Source: Clostridia bacterium (GTDB lineage Bacteria; Bacillota; Clostridia; Oscillospirales; CAG-272). Taken from it: a DNA stretch of 34,516 nt. The notes beneath the pieces were generated by a model. The model worked only from the letters and a program-made list of their open reading frames with translations. It was not told where the DNA came from and searched no databases. Position 1 is the first letter of the stretch. Every line of letters starts with the position of its first letter. Location: NCBI GenBank assembly GCA_017481495.1, contig JAFUPC010000074.1, positions 1-34,516 on the forward strand. The letters run 5' to 3'. Shown here piece by piece: positions 3,604 to 13,442 of the stretch. Both the position numbers and the translations under genes were made by a program.

Positions 3604-4023
3604 TTACTTTTCTGCCTTGGTATCGCAGTACATACAGCGGTACACGCCGTGCTCGCGGTCGGTCAGACGGAACACGTGCGGCAGTTCCTGCTCACAGGAG
3701 GTAATACAGCGGGGATTTTTGCACTTGATCAGATGAACGATGGTTTCCGGCAGTGCGGGATGGATTTTTTCCGCCCGCTGACCGTCGCGGATGATGTTGA
3801 CGGTGATGCCGGTGTCGATGTAGCCGAGAATATCGAGATTGATGTCGATGGGCGCACCGATCTTGATGATGTCCTTTTTACCGCGCTTGCCGCTCTCTGC
3901 ATTTTTGATGAGCGCAACCTCGCAGTCGAGCCGTCCGAGCTTCAGATAGGAATACAGCTCCATGCCGCGCCCCGCGGGGATGTGGTCGATGACGATACCG
4001 TCACGGATGCTTCCGATGATCAT
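3604..4023 (-). CDS. pyrI: Aspartate carbamoyltransferase regulatory subunit
   Basis: A 139-residue PyrI. The N-terminal two thirds is the nucleotide-binding allosteric domain, and the C-terminal zinc domain shows four Cys ligands, C101-x4-C106 and C130-x2-C133, which make the contact to the PyrB trimer. It lets CTP inhibit, and ATP stimulate, the first committed step of pyrimidine synthesis. It lies 17 bases after pyrB with a GGAGGAAG ribosome site and is the last gene of the pyr operon. No clear terminator follows it, so some transcripts may run into spoVAC. Length is slightly under the E. coli protein. Confidence 0.95.
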   Translation of the reverse strand: MIIGSIRDGIVIDHIPAGRGMELYSYLKLGRLDCEVALIKNAESGKRGKKDIIKIGAPIDINLDILGYIDTGITVNIIRDGQRAEKIHPALPETIVHLIKCKNPRCITSCEQELPHVFRLTDREHGVYRCMYCDTKAEK

Positions 4024-4040: not shown

Positions 4041-4967
4041 TTACTTTACTTCAATGCCGAGCAATTTCAAAAACAGCGCCATGCGGATGAATTTTCCGTT
4101 TCTGACCTGTCTGAAATACGCCGCGCGCGGGTCTTCGTCGACCGCAACGGAAATTTCGTTGACGCGGGGAAGCGGATGCAAAATGCGCATTTCCTTTTTA
4201 GCGGTGACGAGCTTGTCCGGGGTCAGGATATAGCTGTCACGCAGGCGGAGATAATCGGCTTCGTTGAAGAAACGTTCTCTCTGCACGCGGGTCATGTAGA
4301 GAATATCAAGTTCCGGCATGACGTCTTCCAGCGACGTGGTCTCGACATACGGAATGTTGTGTGCATCCAGCACCTCCGAGCGGACGTGTTCGGGAATGCG
4401 CAGTTCCTCCGGCGAGATGAACACAAAGCGCACGCCGGGATACCGGCTCATCGCGGTGACAAGGGAATGCACCGTGCGGCCGAATTTCAGGTCGCCGCAG
4501 CAGCCGATGACGAGATTGTCCAGATGCCCGAGTTCCCGCTTGATGGTGAACAGGTCGGTCAGGGTCTGTGTCGGGTGATTGTGACCGCCGTCGCCCGCGT
4601 TGATGACCGGAATGCCGACGTTCATCTGTGCGACGAGCGGCGCGCCCTCCTTGGGATGGCGCATGGCGATGACATCGACAAAGCATTCGACGGTACGCGC
4701 GGTATCCGCAACGGATTCGCCCTTTGAGACGGACGAGCTCTGCGCATCGGAGAAGCCGATGACGGAACCACCGAGATCCAGCATCGCGGATTCAAAGCTC
4801 ATGCGGGTACGGGTGGACGGTTCGTAGAACAGCGTTGCGAGCTTTTTGCCCTTGCAGGACTCTGCATATTTTGCGGGGTTTTCAACGATGTCGAGCGCGA
4901 CGTCCATCATGGCGTCCAGCTCTTCGGTCGTCATCTCCGCAATATCAATGAGGCCCCGGGTCTTCAT
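4041..4967 (-). CDS. pyrB: Aspartate carbamoyltransferase catalytic subunit
   Basis: A 308-residue PyrB that condenses carbamoyl phosphate and aspartate to carbamoyl aspartate. The carbamoyl-phosphate loop S51-T-R-T-R55 is intact, as are H131-P-T-Q134 and the 264-268 HPLPR motif of the aspartate domain. It works with PyrI directly downstream, which implies the regulated dodecameric enzyme. Its ATG overlaps the pyrE stop codon by four bases (ATGA), so it is translationally coupled. Length and motif order are normal. Confidence 0.96.
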
Positions 4968-5620
4968 GCCTTTGCTCCGTTGACGGCAAGGTAATTTCTG
5001 ATGCGCGCGACGTTCTCTGCGTTCGCCTCATCCTCTTCCAGATATTCGATGATGTCATAAACATCGACGACGGAGTAAACCGGGAAGCCATATTCTTCCT
5101 CCAGCTCTGCCATTGCAGACTTTTCGGTTCTGCCCTTTTCCTTTCTGTCGACCATGATGAGGACAGCGGCGACCTTCATGCCGTCGATGGCGGACAGCTT
5201 GCCCATGCTCTCGCGGATGGCGGTTCCGGCGGTAATGACGTCCTCGGTGATGACGACCTCCTCGCCTGCCTTCGGCACATAGCCGACGAACATACCGCCC
5301 TCTCCGTGATCCTTGACCTCCTTGCGGTCAAAGAAGAACGGAACGTCCAGTCCCTCCTTGGACAGCGCAACTGCCGCGGAAACGGCGATGGAAATGCCCT
5401 TGTATGCCGGGCCGTAGAGGACACAGCGCTTGTTTCCGACCTTTTCGAGATAGCTCTTTGCGTAGAACTCGCCGAGCTTTGCGATCTGCTCGCCTGTCTT
5501 GATGTCGCCTGCATTGATGAAGTACGGAATCTTTCTGCCGCTCTTTGCGGTGAAGTCGCCGAATTTCAGGACACCGGCACCCTCAAGGAACCGGATAAAT
5601 TCTCTTTTATAGTTTTCCAT
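4964..5620 (-). CDS. pyrE: Orotate phosphoribosyltransferase
   Basis: A 218-residue enzyme that transfers phosphoribose from PRPP to orotate, giving OMP. The PRPP-binding signature [16 protein letters not shown] is plain, and a flexible-loop segment with K and H ([11 protein letters not shown]) precedes it. The frame is open upstream to 5689, but the start at 5620 (MENYKREF) is chosen because AAAGGAG lies about 11 bases before it and because the longer version would run into the end of pyrF. It overlaps pyrB by four bases and is separated from pyrF by 28 bases. Confidence 0.95.
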
Positions 5621-5648
5621 AATGATTGATTTCTCCTTTTGTTTTTGA

Positions 5649-6350
5649 TTATCCAACGAATTCCGCAACACATCTTCTGTATGCCGCAACGGGATCTTCC
5701 GCTGCTGTGATCGGTCGGCCGACGACGATGTAGTCAGAGCCGATCTCCTTTGCCTGTGCGGGGGTCATGACGCGCACCTGGTCGCCGATGTCGCCGTCCG
5801 CGAAACGGACACCGGGGGTGACGGTGACAAAAGACTTGCCGCAGGTATCGTGAACCTTTGCTGCTTCCAGGGGGGAGCAGACAACGCCGTCCAGACCTGC
5901 GTCAGCGGCATTCTTTGCGTAGTGCATGACCGTCTTGTCGATGGGCGCGTTGATGAGCAGTTCCTCTCTCATGCGTTCCTCGGAGGTGGAGGTCAGCTGG
6001 GTGACAGCGATGAGCATCGTGTTCCGGGTGCCGTCCTCCTTCGTCAGACCTTCAAGTGCCGCTTCCATCATGGCTTTTGTGCCGGCGGCGTGCAAGTTTG
6101 TCATATCGACATCGAGATTCGAGAGAACCTTCATTGCCTTTTTGACGGTGTTCGGGATGTCGTGCAGCTTGAGGTCAAGGAAAATCTTGTGGCCGCGTTC
6201 CTTGATGGCGCGGACAATGGACGGGCCTTCCGCATAATACAGCTCCATGCCGATCTTTACAAAAGGCTTCTCGTTTTCAAATTTGTCCAGAAATGCGAAT
6301 GTGGCTTCTGCGGACGCAAAGTCGCAGGCGATGATGACGTCTTTTCCCAT
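5649..6350 (-). CDS. pyrF: Orotidine 5'-phosphate decarboxylase
   Basis: A 233-residue TIM-barrel enzyme that decarboxylates OMP to UMP, the last step of de novo UMP synthesis. The catalytic Asp-Lys-Asp array is seen in DLKLHDIPN (residues 59-67, K61 and D64), and the phosphate-binding end VTPGVRF and [12 protein letters not shown] is complete. The open frame extends upstream to 6437, but that part lies inside pyrD; the ATG at 6350 has GGAGGAG 7 bases upstream and overlaps the pyrD stop by one base (TGATG). Length is that of the short bacterial class. Confidence 0.95.
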
Positions 6351-7276
6351 CAGTGTGCTCCTCCGATAATTTCTTTCAGTGTGTTGATATTGTATTTGTC
6401 CATCACTTCGGGCAGTGCGGCGATGATGTCGCGGCACGCGAAGGGATTGCGTAGATTTTCGGCACCGACCTCAACGGCGGTGGCTCCGGCAAGCATCATT
6501 TCGATGACATCCTCGGCACATGACACACCGCCCATGCCGACGACCGGAATCTTGACGGCTTTCGATACCTGATAAACCATCCGCACGGCGACCGGGAAAA
6601 CTGCCGCACCGGAGTAGCCGCCGGTGGTGTTGGCAAGCAGTGGCTTCTTTTTGCGCAGATCAATGCGCATACCGAGCAGGGTGTTGATGAGCGATACACC
6701 GTCCGCACCCGCCGCCTCCACGGCTTTTGCGATCTCCACAATGTCCGTGACGTTGGGGGAAAACTTGACGATCAGCGGCTTTTTCACAACATCGCGCACC
6801 GCTTTGACAACGGTTTCCGCAGAGCCGGCGCAGGTGCCGAATGCCATACCGCCGCCGTGGACGTTCGGGCAGGAGATGTTCAGCTCGATCCAGCCGACCT
6901 GCTCTTCCCTGTCAAGACGGGAGGAGACCTCCACATATTCGTCAAGCGAGAAGCCGGAGACGTTTGCCATGACCGGCTTGTCAAAGACGGCTTTCAGGCG
7001 GGGCAGTTCTTTTGTTACGACCGCATCCACACCAGGATTCTGCAGTCCAACTGCGTTGAGCATACCGGACGGGCATTCCGCAATGCGGGGCGTGGGATTG
7101 CCGAAGCGCGCTTCGCGGGTCGTTCCCTTGAACGAAAACGTGCCGAGCACATTGATGTCGTACAGCTCCGCAAATTCGTAGCCGTAGCCGAATGTGCCGC
7201 TTGCCGGAATGATGGGGTTGTCGATGTCAATGCCGCAGAGATTCACGCCGAGACGTGCTTTTGTTACTTCTCCCAT
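6350..7276 (-). CDS. pyrD: Dihydroorotate dehydrogenase 1B, catalytic subunit
   Basis: A 308-residue FMN-containing TIM-barrel subunit, closely resembling Lactococcus PyrDB. The catalytic base is a Cys (C136) in NISCPNV, which marks class 1 enzymes rather than the Ser of membrane-bound class 2. [19 protein letters not shown] and the FMN phosphate loop [11 protein letters not shown] are also present. It oxidises dihydroorotate to orotate and passes electrons to PyrK, then to NAD, as expected for an anaerobe. It overlaps pyrK by 13 bases. Confidence 0.95.
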
Positions 7277-8004
7277 ACGATCTCCTCCTTTTCAAGGACA
7301 GGGCCGTCCTTGCAGATGCGTTTGTTTCCGTACAATGTCTTGCAGGAGCATCCCATGCACGCGCCGAAGCCGCAGCCCATGCGTTCCTCAAAGCTGTACT
7401 GACCGGATGTTTTGGATGCGTTGTATACCGCGCGGAGCATCGGCTCCGGGCCGCAGCAATAGGTGTAGGTATAATCCCCGGCGAAATCAAAGGCGTTCGT
7501 GACAAATCCCTTGATGCCGGCACTGCCGTCCTCGGTCGTCACACAGACCTTTGCCCCCAGCGCTTCAAATTCGTCTTTGTAAAAGACATCCCGCGCGGAA
7601 CGGAAACCTAAGATCACAGTGACGTCCTTTCCCTCTCCGATGAGCTGTTTTGCCAGCATATAGAGGGGCGGAACGCCGACACCGCCGCCGATGAGCAGAG
7701 GGCGGCCGCCGGATTTCTTCGTGTCGTAGCCGTTGCCAAGGCCTGTCAGGATGTCAAGCTCCTCGCCTGCACCCATTTTCGACATTTTTTCGGTGCCTTT
7801 GCCAACGATCTTGTAAATGAGGGTCAGGGTATCCTCCTCCGCATCGTTGACGGAGATGGGGCGGCGGAGATACATCCCGTCAAGCAGGATGTTGACGAAC
7901 TGTCCGGGGGATGTGATGTCCCCGGTATCGCCCAGAAGCGTCATCTTCATGATGTCGTGGGTCAGGGCGATATTGTCTTTTACGGTGAAAAAGGATTGCT
8001 TCAT
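7264..8004 (-). CDS. pyrK: Dihydroorotate dehydrogenase 1B, electron-transfer subunit
   Basis: A 246-residue flavoprotein of the ferredoxin-reductase type. RRPIS (residues 47-51) binds FAD, LLIGGGVGVPPLYML (about 103-118) starts the NAD-binding half, and four Cys in the pattern C211-x4-C216-x2-C219-x11-C231 hold the [2Fe-2S] cluster. It forms a heterotetramer with PyrD and reduces NAD with the electrons from dihydroorotate. The ATG overlaps the carB stop codon by four bases, and its own end overlaps pyrD by 13 bases. Confidence 0.95.
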   Translation of the reverse strand: MKQSFFTVKDNIALTHDIMKMTLLGDTGDITSPGQFVNILLDGMYLRRPISVNDAEEDTLTLIYKIVGKGTEKMSKMGAGEELDILTGLGNGYDTKKSGGRPLLIGGGVGVPPLYMLAKQLIGEGKDVTVILGFRSARDVFYKDEFEALGAKVCVTTEDGSAGIKGFVTNAFDFAGDYTYTYCCGPEPMLRAVYNASKTSGQYSFEERMGCGFGACMGCSCKTLYGNKRICKDGPVLEKEEIVWEK

Positions 8005-11000
8005 ATCGCGGAAACCTCCATGGTGATTTCTTCAAGAACGTCAAGCAGAACGCGCACGGTATCCAGTGCTGTGAAGATGGTGACACCGTTTTCCACGGCA
8101 CAGCGGCGGATCTCCACACCGTCGGAAACGGTATTCATGCCGCCGGATGCGCTCAGATCTCTTGTGTTAATGACATAAGTGACATATCCGCCGCGGATGG
8201 AGTCGAGGATCTCCTCGGAGCCTTCGTTGAGCTTTTTCTTTACGCGCGTGCGGATGCCGTTGGCTTTTAAGAACATCGCCGTTCCGTGCGTGGCTTCGAT
8301 GTTGAAGCCCATATTGTAGAAGCGGCGGATGAGGGGCAGTGCTTCCTCCTTGTCGCGGTCGGCAAGGGTGACAAGAATCGTGCCGTAATTGAGCACCTGC
8401 ATTCCGGATGCCTGGAGTGCTTTGTACAGCGCTCTCGTCATCTTGCGGTCGTAGCCGATGGCTTCACCCGTGGACTTCATTTCGGGGGAGAGGTAAACGT
8501 CCATGCCGCGCAGTTTCGAGAACGAGAACGCGGGAACCTTGACATACCATTTTTCGGGCGCAGTGTCGGGATAGAGTTTATCATACCCCTGCTCTTTCAG
8601 CGACACACCCAGAATGACAAGCGTACCGATGTCCGCCAGATTGCACCCAGTCGCCTTGGATAAGAACGGCACGGTTCTGGACGAACGCGGGTTGACCTCG
8701 ATGATATAGACCCGGTTGTCAGGGTCGACAATAAACTGGATATTGAACAGTCCGATGATGCCGATGGCAAGACCGAGCCGTTTCGTGTAGTCGAGAATTG
8801 TCTCTTTGACGGTGTCATTCAGGGTAAACGGCGGATAGACCGAGATGGAGTCGCCGGAGTGGACACCGGTGCGTTCGACCAGCTCCATGATGCCGGGAAC
8901 GAAGACGTCCGTTCCGTCACAGACCGCATCGACCTCGACCTCACGGCCGACGATATATTTATCGACCAGAACCGGCTTGTCCTCGTCGATCTCGACGGCG
9001 GTTTTCAGATAATGGCGCAGCTGCTCCTCGTTTGCGACAATCTGCATCGCGCGGCCGCCAAGGACGAACGATGGGCGGACGAGCACCGGATACCCGATCT
9101 CTGCGGCGGCGCGCACACCGTCTTCCAGCTTTGTGACCGCATGACCCTTCGGCTGGGGAATGCCGAGAGAGGTCAGCACCTTTTCAAACGCATCGCGGTT
9201 TTCAGCGCGGTCGATGGCTTCCTTGTCTGTGCCGATGATGCGCACCCCGCGTGCGGCAAGCGGTTCTGCCAGATTGATCGCCGTCTGACCGCCAAGCGAT
9301 GCGATGACGCCCCACGGTTTTTCGATGTCAATGATGTTCATGACATCCTCCGGGGTCAAGGGCTCAAAATAGAGCTTGTCGGAGCAAGTGTAGTCGGTGG
9401 AGACCGTTTCGGGGTTGTTGTTGATGATGATCGCCTCACAGCCATGAGATTTGATGGTCATGACGGCGTGGACGGTGGAATAGTCGAACTCGACACCCTG
9501 TCCGATGCGGATGGGGCCGGCACCGAGCACGATGATCTTCTTCCGGTCGGTGATGACCGACTCGTTCTCATCGGCGTAGGTGGAGTAGAAATACGGGATA
9601 TACGAATCGAATTCCGATGCGCAGGTGTCGATCATCTTGTAAACGGGCAGAATACCGTGTTCCTTGCGCAGATCGGTGACGGCAAGCTCCGTCATGTTCC
9701 ACAGTTCGCCGATCTCCCGGTCGCAGAAGCCGGACTTCTTTGCGGCGCGGAGCGCTTTTATGTCGCACGGATTGCTTTCGAGATACGCTTCCATGCGGAC
9801 GATGTTGTGGATCTTATCGACAAAGAAGCTGTCGATCTTCGTAATTTTACAGATCGTATCCACATCCGTGCCGCGGCGCAGAAGCTCTGCGATCGCAAAC
9901 ACACGGTCGTCGGTGCCGTCTTTGATATAGGCAAGCAGGTCGGTGGTTGTGAACGCATCGAATTTCTTCATGTGCAGGTGGTACACACCGCATTCCAGCG
10001 AACGGACGGCTTTCAGGAGGCTTTCCTCCATCGTGCGCCCGATGCTCATGACCTCACCGGTCGCTTTCATCTGGGTGGACAGACGGTTGTTCGCATCAGC
10101 GAACTTGTCAAATGGGAAGCGCGGCATTTTCGTAACCACATAATCGAGCGTCGGCTCAAAGGATGCCGGGGTGTTCGCAATGCGGATCTCATCCAAGGTC
10201 ATACCGACGGCGATCTTTGCGGAGACCCGTGCAATCGGGTAGCCGGATGCCTTGGAGGCAAGTGCGGATGAGCGGGAGACACGGGGATTGACCTCGATGA
10301 CATAATAGCGGAACGACTGCGGATCGAGTGCAAACTGCACATTGCATCCACCCTCGATTTTCAACGCACGGATGATGCGCAGGGCGCTGTCGCGCAGAAG
10401 ATGGTATTCCTTGTTCGTCAGCGTCTGCGATGGGCAGACGACGATGGAGTCACCGGTGTGGATGCCGACGGGGTCGAGATTTTCCATATTACAAACGGTG
10501 ATGGCGGTGTCGTTTGCATCGCGGATGACCTCATATTCAATCTCCTTGTAGCCGCGGATGGATTTTTCGACGAGAACCTGGTGTACGGGGGAAAGCTTCA
10601 GCGCGTTCTTCATGATCTCGCGCAGCTCCTCCTCATTGTCCGCAAAGCCGCCGCCGGTGCCGCCCAGCGTAAAGGCGGGGCGCAGAACGACCGGGTATCC
10701 GATGTCCTCCGCCGCCCGTACACCCTCCTCAATGGAGTTTGCGATCTCGGACGGGCAGACCGGCTCGCCGATCTGTTCACACAGCTCCTTGAACAATTCT
10801 CTGTCCTCGGCGCGGGCGATAGAATCGGAGGATGTGCCGAGCAGCTCGACCTGGCATTCCCGCAGAATGCCCTTCTTTTCCAGCTGCATGGCAAGATTGA
10901 GTCCCGTCTGACCGCAGATACCGTGAACAATGGCATCGGGGCGCTCGAGACTGACTAATTTTTCGACATATTACAGGGAAAGGGGTGCCATATAGATCTT

Positions 11001-11186
11001 GTCGGCAATGGCGCGGTCGGTCATGATGGTCGCGGGGTTGGAGTTGGCTAAAATGACCTCATACCCCTCCTCACGCAGTGCCAGACACGCCTGTGTTCCT
11101 GCGTAGTCGAATTCCGCCGCCTGACCGATGACGATGGGGCCGGAACCGATGACCATGATCTTGTGAAGGTCTGTTCTCTTAGGCAT
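8001..11186 (-). pseudogene. carB: Carbamoyl-phosphate synthase large subunit with in-frame stop
   Basis: The gene spans 1061 sense-length codons plus the end codon, the normal CarB size, in one unbroken frame except for a TAA at 10973-10971 (codon 72). The residues before it ([12 protein letters not shown]) and after it (YVEKLVSLERPDAIV) are ordinary CarB, where Glu (GAA) usually stands, so one G-to-T change explains the stop. Downstream, both ATP-grasp halves are complete, including LRPAFTLGGTGGG and VRPSFVLGGRAM. The first Met after the stop is codon 100 (10889), which would remove the N-terminal part of the first domain and has no clear ribosome site. The enzyme makes carbamoyl phosphate for pyrimidine and arginine synthesis. 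The change may be a sequencing error or a real recent mutation. Confidence 0.85.
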
Positions 11187-12276
11187 TGACGTTCGCCTCC
11201 TTCATAAGTGCGATGAACCGATCGAACAGATAGCCGGAATCCTGCGGACCCGGTGCGCTTTCGGGGTGATACTGCACGGAAAAGATGCGGTCGCGCATAC
11301 TTTCCACGCCCTCTGCGGTATTGTCAAGCAGATTGATATGGGTGAGTTCCAGACCTGTTCCCGCAAGGGAATCCACATCAACTGCATACGAATGATTCTG
11401 GCTTGTGATCTCCACTTTTCCGGTTTTCAGATTCTTGACCGGATGGTTGCCGCCGCGGTGACCGAATTTCAGTTTGTACGTTTTTGCGCCGTAGGCGAGA
11501 GCGATCATCTGGTGACCGAGACAGATGCCGAAGATCGGCAGCTTTCCGCGCAGGGCGCGCACCAGCTCTATGACCGGGGTGACATCCTCCGGGTCGCCGG
11601 GACCGTTGGAGAGGAACAGTCCGTCGGGCTTCATCGCAAGGATGGTCGCGGCATCGGTGTTGTACGGAACAACGGTCACGTTGCATCCGCGGGCGTTTAA
11701 GGAACGGACGATGTTGAGCTTGATGCCGCAGTCCACGGCGACGACGTTGTATACATGGTCGGGCGTGCGGGAGAACCAGCGCTTCTTGCAGGACACGCGG
11801 GAGACCGCATCGTGCGGGACGGGGGTGTTCCGGATGATTTCCAGACCCGTTTCCAGACTGGTGCCGATACTTGTGATGAGCACGCGGCGGGAACCGTGGT
11901 CGCGGATGGAGCGGTTCAGCTTTCTTGTGTCAATGCCTTCGATGCCGGGAATGTGATATTCTTCCAGGATCTCGTCCAGGGTCTTGGTGCATCGGAAATT
12001 GGAGGGGCGGTCGTTGTATTCGGAGACAATGAGTGCGCCGAGGGTCGGCGTGCGTGTCTCAAAATCCTCGTCCGTGATGCCGTAATTGCCGATGAGCGGA
12101 TAGGTCATGACGACCGCCTGATCGGTATACGACGGGTCGGAGACAATCTCCTGATACCCTACCATTGAAGTGTTGAAAACGATTTCGCAGACGCGGTCCT
12201 CCCAACAGCCGAAGCCGTAGCCGAGATATTCCGACCCGTCCTCCAAAATCAGTTTTCTGTTGTAGCTGCGTTCCAT
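11179..12276 (-). CDS. carA: Carbamoyl-phosphate synthase small subunit
   Basis: A 365-residue glutaminase subunit that supplies ammonia to CarB. The C-terminal class I amidotransferase domain shows the nucleophile in FGICLGHQM and the His/Glu of [11 protein letters not shown]; the N-terminal CPSase domain has [12 protein letters not shown] place the start at 12276 (MERSYNRKL): AAAGGA lies 8 bases before it, whereas the ATG at 12282 is only 2 bases from that site and the one at 12309 has none. This start overlaps pyrC by 28 bases. Its end overlaps carB by 8 bases. Confidence 0.94.
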
Positions 12277-13442
12277 ACACATCTTCCTTTCCAGAACGTC
12301 GCAATGCATTTGCCGAAAACTTCCATGCCATCAAACGGCGTACTGCGTCCCATCGACGCAAATGCCGCCGCATCCACTGTTGTCTTTTCATTCAGTGCCC
12401 ACACGGTACAGTCGCCGTGTTCATAACCTGCCGCACCGAGGGAGAACCGTCTGCGCGGGTTGTCCGACATCAGGGCGATGAGCTTTTCAAGGGTCAGAAT
12501 GCCCGGCTTCACCAGTCCCGTGTACAGAACCGGGAACGCGCATTCCAGTCCGACGATGCCGTTCAGACTGCCCGCAAAGCCCTTTGCCTTTTCCTCTGCG
12601 CTGTGCGGTGCATGGTCGGTGGCGATCATATCGACCGTCCCGTCATGAAGTGCCACGATGAGTGCTTCCCTGTCTGCGGGTGCGCGGAGCGGCGGATTCA
12701 TTTTCCAGTTTCCGCTGTCCGCCCGCATGGTCTCATCGAGAAGCAGGTAATGCGGCCCCGTCTCGCAAGTGACGTCGATACCGTCTTTTTTTGCCTGCCG
12801 GATAAGCTCCAGCGACACGGCGGAGGAAACGTGGCAGACGTGGAGTGCCGCACCCGTTTCCTTTGCAAGCAGGATGTCCCGTTCTACCTCCGACCATTCA
12901 CTTCTCGGGTCGGCCGGTGCATACGTCAGGTCTTCGCAGTGCGCGACGATGATCTTGCCGAGTGCCTTTGCCCGCACCATCGCCTCCCGCATCAGTGCCG
13001 CATCCGCGACCCCGCGCCCATCGTCGGAAAAGCCGGCGACATCCTCTGCCATCGCTTCCAGATCTGCGAGAACCTGTCCGTTTTCCCCGACGGTGATGGC
13101 GCCCATCGGACGGGCATCCACACACGCATCACGCCGGATGCAGTCGAGCTGAACATCGAGGTGTTCCCTCGAATCGGGAACGGGATCGAGGTTCGCCATC
13201 GGACAAACCGCTGTATAACCGCCGTGTGCTGCCGCGCGCGTTCCCGTCTTCACCGTCTCCTTATAAGAAAATCCCGGTTCACGCAGATGCACATGCACAT
13301 CCGCAAAGCCGGGAAACACATAATATTCGGAATTTTCGGAAACAATACCGCCCTTGTCCCCTGCCGATACGTCAAGAGAGACCTCTTCCGGGGAGAAAAA
13401 GCCGCCGCGGTAAACCATTGCATTCCGTTTCGTTTTGGTCAT
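12249..13442 (-). CDS. pyrC: Dihydroorotase
   Basis: A 397-residue amidohydrolase that closes carbamoyl aspartate to dihydroorotate. The zinc site is visible as DVHVHLREPG (H50 and H52), AHCED (H168), the VCHVSS His (H204) and ATDHAPH (D276); KMNPPLR is the substrate loop. The form resembles the class I enzymes of Gram-positives. It is the first gene of the pyr operon, with AAAGGA about 11 bases upstream of the ATG. It follows a leader of about 265 nt with an attenuator-like terminator. Confidence 0.94.
   Translation of the reverse strand: MTKTKRNAMVYRGGFFSPEEVSLDVSAGDKGGIVSENSEYYVFPGFADVHVHLREPGFSYKETVKTGTRAAAHGGYTAVCPMANLDPVPDSREHLDVQLDCIRRDACVDARPMGAITVGENGQVLADLEAMAEDVAGFSDDGRGVADAALMREAMVRAKALGKIIVAHCEDLTYAPADPRSEWSEVERDILLAKETGAALHVCHVSSAVSLELIRQAKKDGIDVTCETGPHYLLLDETMRADSGNWKMNPPLRAPADREALIVALHDGTVDMIATDHAPHSAEEKAKGFAGSLNGIVGLECAFPVLYTGLVKPGILTLEKLIALMSDNPRRRFSLGAAGYEHGDCTVWALNEKTTVDAAAFASMGRSTPFDGMEVFGKCIATFWKGRCVWNAATTEN

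Follow-up and report, generated by a model that had tools for sequence, protein, structure and literature searches.

The window analysed here is a stretch of 34,516 nucleotides that makes up the entire contig C27 of a Clostridia bacterium genome (3.23 Mb in 126 contigs, scored as 86.3% complete). It carries a pyr operon on the minus strand, in which carA and carB, the genes for the two subunits of carbamoyl-phosphate synthase (CPSase), lie between pyrC and pyrK. We identified carA, carB and pyrB by profile score and the remaining genes as open reading frames in synteny with the congeneric genome G006, with their names recognised by eye.

3604..4023, minus strand: pyrI (open reading frame; synteny with G006)
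4041..4967, minus strand: pyrB, aspartate carbamoyltransferase (TIGR00670, 333.1 bits)
4964..5623, minus strand: pyrE (open reading frame; synteny with G006)
5649..6353, minus strand: pyrF (open reading frame; synteny with G006)
6350..7276, minus strand: pyrD (open reading frame; synteny with G006)
7264..8004, minus strand: pyrK (open reading frame; synteny with G006)
8001..11186, minus strand: carB, carbamoyl-phosphate synthase large subunit (1061 codons plus stop; TIGR01369, 1451.5 bits; one internal TAA)
10971..10973, minus strand: in-frame TAA, codon 72 of the pyr-operon carB (frame read; also in the genome record, G000:C27)
11179..12276, minus strand: carA of the pyr operon (TIGR01368, 461.6 bits; Cys/His/Glu triad present)
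12249..13442, minus strand: pyrC (open reading frame; synteny with G006)

The frame of carB runs from 11186 down to 8001. Codon 72 (10973-10971) is TAA, a disabling change of the kind expected of a pseudogene, and the frame is open otherwise; a search that read through the stop gave a full-length match to TIGR01369, above the curated cut-off of 1027. An earlier, sequence-only reading of this DNA had placed the stop at this codon and in this frame, and both direct reading and the genome record of C27 bear it out. It had also expected Glu at this codon, and rightly: among 90 orthologues at least 70% identical, the residue is Glu in 87, Gln in two and Ala in one, and the TAA is one base off a Glu codon. 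The same reading held the other pyr genes to be intact, in agreement with our alignments to the syntenic operon of G006, which cover pyrI, pyrB, pyrE, pyrF, pyrD, pyrK, carA and pyrC over their full length or almost so. Its suggestion of a restart at codon 100 is possible, as the first in-frame ATG, GTG or TTG past the stop is an ATG at that codon (10889). The frame so restarted would lack the first 98 positions of the family.

8001..10889, minus strand: open reading frame left by a restart at the ATG of codon 100 (962 amino acids; matches TIGR01369 positions 99-1051)

The open frame past the stop would also allow a full-length CarB to be made by readthrough of the TAA, as had been proposed, or by its reassignment. 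We consider this highly improbable as a habit of the organism. TAA terminates 14 of the 27 frames taken as genes in the window, and is thus in use as a terminator. Across 59 genomes (the window's and 58 relatives), the window's carB is the only one of 67 CarB entries over the cut-off to contain an internal stop (entries counted from the listing, 63 directly and four as halves of two genes). Readthrough would, moreover, leave unexplained a set of further changes that surround the stop.

These changes came to light in a comparison with P0001, the closest database protein to the 962-residue remainder among the best 120 of 7,988 hits, whose ENA contig is listed at 67,861 bases. Of the 1007 residues compared between P0001 and the window's CarB, 11 are different (codons 59, 67, 70, 72, 75, 77, 79, 80, 88, 91 and 873). 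Ten of these differences fall in the span of codons 59-91, nine of them from codon 67 on, while outside that span only one of 974 residues differs, that of codon 873. Codon 59 varies among relatives, and the idea that the residue of P0001 there is anomalous was dropped, as the locus L085 shares it. The nine remaining changes form a patch that is absent from P0001, to judge from its near identity another copy from the same species.

10914..10988, minus strand: patch of nine residue differences from P0001, including the stop (codons 67-91; comparison with P0001 and orthologues)

We evaluated the patch against the 90 orthologues, which were drawn from 110 full-length sequences (109 distinct) of 111 loci. 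Over the whole gene, the window departs from columns conserved in at least 95% of the orthologues at six sites (codons 67, 72, 75, 79, 88 and 91), all of them in the patch. These six are the highest number of departures within 25 codons in any of the 91 sequences; the runners-up are two sequences with five, which have 26 and 31 departures overall. Six positions placed at random fell together within 25 of the 1061 codons in none of 200,000 trials. At codons 67, 79 and 91, a single residue occurs in 90 of 90 orthologues, and the residues of the window occur in none. The CarB of G006, which is 95.3% identical to that of the window, shows two departures from conserved columns, neither of them in the patch. 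When the identity threshold is relaxed to 50%, which gives 101 sequences, the patch sites that still depart from 95% conserved columns are 67 and 91 alone, so the strength of the test depends on close orthologues.

Other ways of assessing the patch were set aside. Clustering of differences against G006 alone was rejected as a diagnostic, because ordinary variable regions cluster too: 12 other open reading frames in three compared regions, like carB, have clusters reached by none of 500 shuffles each. We relied on conservation across many species instead. All nine patch changes are transversions by the minimum path, which has a probability of about 0.045 under uniform random errors, and eight of 12 residue-changing single-base codons elsewhere in the comparison with G006 are transversions as well; the spectrum was dropped as weak proof of error. 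Retroelement-type hypermutation affects adenines only, and an adenine-targeted process of this type was ruled out, as the changed sites are not confined to adenines on either strand (codons read by eye). A repeat or hairpin as a source of assembly trouble was also discarded, as the arms that we found are weak and far apart (15 nt at 80%, 13 nt at 85%).

The description of carB as otherwise intact is not borne out: the flanks of the stop, which had been taken for normal CarB sequence, hold, with the stop, nine differences in codons 67-91. Nor is the stop a lone single-base change, as had been supposed. A single nonsense mutation in an otherwise normal carB would account for a TAA one base from a Glu codon, but it leaves eight more residue differences within the same 25 codons, and we give it hardly any credence. 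A patch of this kind is more suggestive of a local sequence error than of a simple nonsense mutation. The rest of the gene shows no decay beyond the disabling site, as departures from conserved sites are confined to codons 67-91. In comparison with G006, carB has 472 silent and 50 residue-changing codons, nine of the latter in the patch; judged by these codons over its full length, the gene is under purifying selection of the ordinary kind. Apart from the patch, the CarA and CarB of the pyr operon are ordinary members of the glutamine-dependent CPSases (TIGR01368 and TIGR01369), from which the window's CarB differs in its stop and the eight neighbouring differences.

Similar carB genes are abundant in metagenomes, and the patch could have been brought in from one of them by gene conversion or as an assembly chimera. 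This origin seems very unlikely. At the DNA level, the loci compared match the patch at 79.8% over 104 bases at best, and neither they nor the window nor the C114 stretch, which carries the genome's own second carB, yielded a good donor. That second carB itself differs. For the first 71 codons, the best 120 of 7,998 database hits, as listed, include no match above 92%. Since codons 67, 79 and 91 are invariant in 90 of 90 orthologues and the window's residues there occur in none of them, chimerism with a different functional CarB fails to account for the patch.

Given these analyses, we propose that the TAA and the whole patch at codons 67-91 are likely an error in the assembly consensus, with a probability of about 0.75, and that the organism itself most likely has no stop at codon 72. 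The wrong bases would have come from one or a few poor reads across a place of low coverage in the metagenome assembly, and the living cell would carry an unbroken pyr-operon carB and make full-length CarB. Consensus errors in metagenome-assembled genomes are a known class of artefact, for which the literature searched yielded no relevant paper. The window resembles such cases in that a conserved housekeeping gene has an internal stop and clustered substitutions that another copy lacks, and differs from a generally error-ridden assembly in that the other tested pyr genes look clean. Similar bursts were found in none of the eight other testable pyr genes, which counts against a generally poor assembly; seven further genes of the window had too few orthologues. 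As for controls, rpoB has no internal stop in either genome compared, and rplB gave no match in either, so that the comparison of ribosomal operons was dropped. A search of a plasmid collection gave no match.

The site of the patch seems to be hard to assemble, which lends the proposed consensus error circumstantial support. P0001 begins only at codon 55, where, to go by its listing, its contig ends. The short start could instead mean that the gene of P0001 is truncated or damaged, which would count against an error. In the database, a carA identical to that of the window is found on three contigs, none longer than 4,860 bases (a count that evidently omits the window's own contig), and thus not on the 67,861-base contig of P0001. 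In the congener G005, contig ends interrupt carB between codons 136 and 145.

Alternatively, the stop may be real. A recent, localized burst of mutations would then have broken carB, with a second CPSase compensating for it, as a step toward the absence of carA and carB seen in congeners. The genome does contain a second carA-carB pair without stops; the sequence-only reading had thought a second carB possible. The profile search of the genome placed the second CarB at C114:30432-33557, with no internal stop. It is preceded by carA and fused in frame to a domain resembling diaminopimelate epimerase (DapF), for a total of 1344 residues, and the pair sits beside his genes (names recognised by eye).

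L002:595-4629, also L116, minus strand: CarB and DapF-like fusion, 1344 amino acids, MCGN cysteine replaced (G000:C114)
L002:4648-5697, minus strand: second CarA, with Gly/Thr/Asp for the triad Cys/His/Glu (G000:C114)

The genome also encodes argG, ornithine carbamoyltransferase and upp, all without internal stops. With these genes and the second carAB pair present, the dependence on outside pyrimidine and arginine that had been envisaged does not follow from the stop. By its gene content, the organism is not missing a carbamoyl phosphate synthase even if the stop is real.

The congeners offer further support for a real stop. In G002, G003 and G004, pyrC is followed directly by pyrK, with neither carA nor carB between them and no N in the sequence (L179, L180 and L181); the contigs of G002 and G003 start inside pyrC. 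The pyr operons of G005, G006 and the window retain carAB, and the contig of G008 ends in pyrF, so that its pyrC-pyrK junction lies outside it. A tree built on six pyr proteins of 13 sources, with G001 and G007 left out, places G005 at the base of the genus, followed by the window with G006, and by G004 with G003, G002 and G008. G002, G003 and G004 thus stand beside the window and G006, with a support of only 0.67 and 0.57 for the two inner groupings, so that carAB may have been lost once or twice. From the operons of these three congeners, the pyr copy of carAB looks dispensable in the genus.

Two congeners have further features in their pyr-type genes. In G005, one internal TGA is reported in carA (C267:1882-2898; L135 and L176), and tblastn from residue 23 shows no stop; contig C267 ends inside carB, at about codon 136. 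The listed congener G007, scored as 58% complete, has two different carB genes nearer the pyr type (C74 and C82; L171 and L172), which are 68.8% and 74.6% identical to that of the window, the second being cut by a contig end.

A real loss of the pyr-operon carAB is biologically plausible, as congeners without these genes exist, and given the second carAB pair a real stop would probably be survivable. However, a real stop requires that nine changes cluster while the remainder of the 1061 codons shows no decay, and genes released from selection do not usually drift in this way; P0001, which is near-identical elsewhere, also lacks the patch. We therefore regard a real break of carB as unlikely and retain a consensus error as the preferred explanation.

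The second carAB pair is, in our opinion, a better lead than the stop, as its CarA lacks the glutaminase triad and its CarB has a DapF-like tail. In the second CarA of the window genome, the Cys, His and Glu of glutamine hydrolysis are replaced by Gly, Thr and Asp, the triad loss expected of an ammonia-only CPSase. As in the window genome, the second CarA of G001, G003, G004, G006 and G008 lacks both the catalytic Cys and the His, with Asp in the position of Glu, while that of G005 keeps all three residues. Across the genus, the triad is present in five of 11 CarAs and absent from six. The triad-less CarA is the sole CarA over the cut-off in G001, G003, G004 and G008, and G002 has none over the cut-off; these five genomes are scored as 75-94% complete.

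We also examined 16 genomes chosen from 22 non-congeners that have a CarB frame 1325-1432 residues long; the remaining six (G016, G029, G031, G042, G050 and G053) also carry other CarBs over the cut-off. Among the 18 CarAs of the 16 genomes, seven lack the Cys (one of these, in G036, scores below the cut-off), one has Cys and His but no Glu, and 10 are complete. In G010, G021, G025, G051 and G055, scored as 95-98% complete, every CarA over the cut-off lacks the Cys. G025 (98% complete) has two CarAs over the cut-off, on C24 and C18 (L204 and L212), both without the catalytic Cys. Overall, nine of the 25 genomes examined, a chosen and not a random set, have only Cys-less CarAs over the cut-off. 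Loss of the triad thus extends, in other forms, to five genomes of other genera and families. By analogy, the enzymes with Cys-less CarAs would be ammonia-only bacterial synthases.

The C-terminal domain of the second CarB resembles DapF by profile score (TIGR00652, 260.3 bits against a cut-off of 114.65). Unlike DapF, it is fused in frame to CarB, and in most fused loci the cysteine of the MCGN motif is replaced. Such in-frame fusions occur at 12 of the loci compared (13 of 32 entries, one place appearing twice). Nine of the 12 have another residue for the MCGN cysteine, which all 19 unfused copies retain, and none of the 12 has lost the second cysteine motif; we take the two motifs to hold the two catalytic cysteines of DapF. 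A separate DapF is encoded in the window genome, at C31. We compared replacement of the DapF cysteine with the state of the CarA triad across loci, and the two changes are not consistently associated.

According to PMC4655335, human CPS1 lacks the catalytic Cys and uses free ammonia, and all CPS types except CPS1 use glutamine. The second CarA of the window genome resembles this CPSase I of ureotelic animals, as there described, in lacking the catalytic Cys, and by analogy ammonia would be its nitrogen source. In contrast to CPS1, the enzyme is bacterial, has a separate CarA chain in which His and Glu are also replaced, and has a CarB fused to a DapF-like domain; it is known here from sequence. 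The literature searched, which excludes most subscription journals, yielded no report of a bacterial CarA without the triad or of a CarB-DapF fusion.

We speculate, at even odds, that in this genus an ammonia-only CPSase, consisting of the triad-less CarA and the CarB-DapF fusion, made the glutamine-using pyr CarAB dispensable. The absence of operon carAB from three congeners supports this, and the stop in the window, if real, would be an early step. Triad loss is also seen in CarAs from three further genera of the family and from two further families of the order, so bacteria may repeatedly have evolved a counterpart of animal CPSase I.

For draft genomes, the lesson is that an in-frame stop should be read together with the changes that neighbour it; here the surrounding cluster betrays the stop. 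For the bacteria studied, the gene content raises the possibility of ammonia-only CPSases and of a genus able to do without the carAB of its pyr operon. If true, a triad-less bacterial CPSase would be an exception to the use of glutamine by all CPS other than CPS1, as stated in PMC4655335, and pyrimidine and arginine synthesis would be tied directly to free ammonia.
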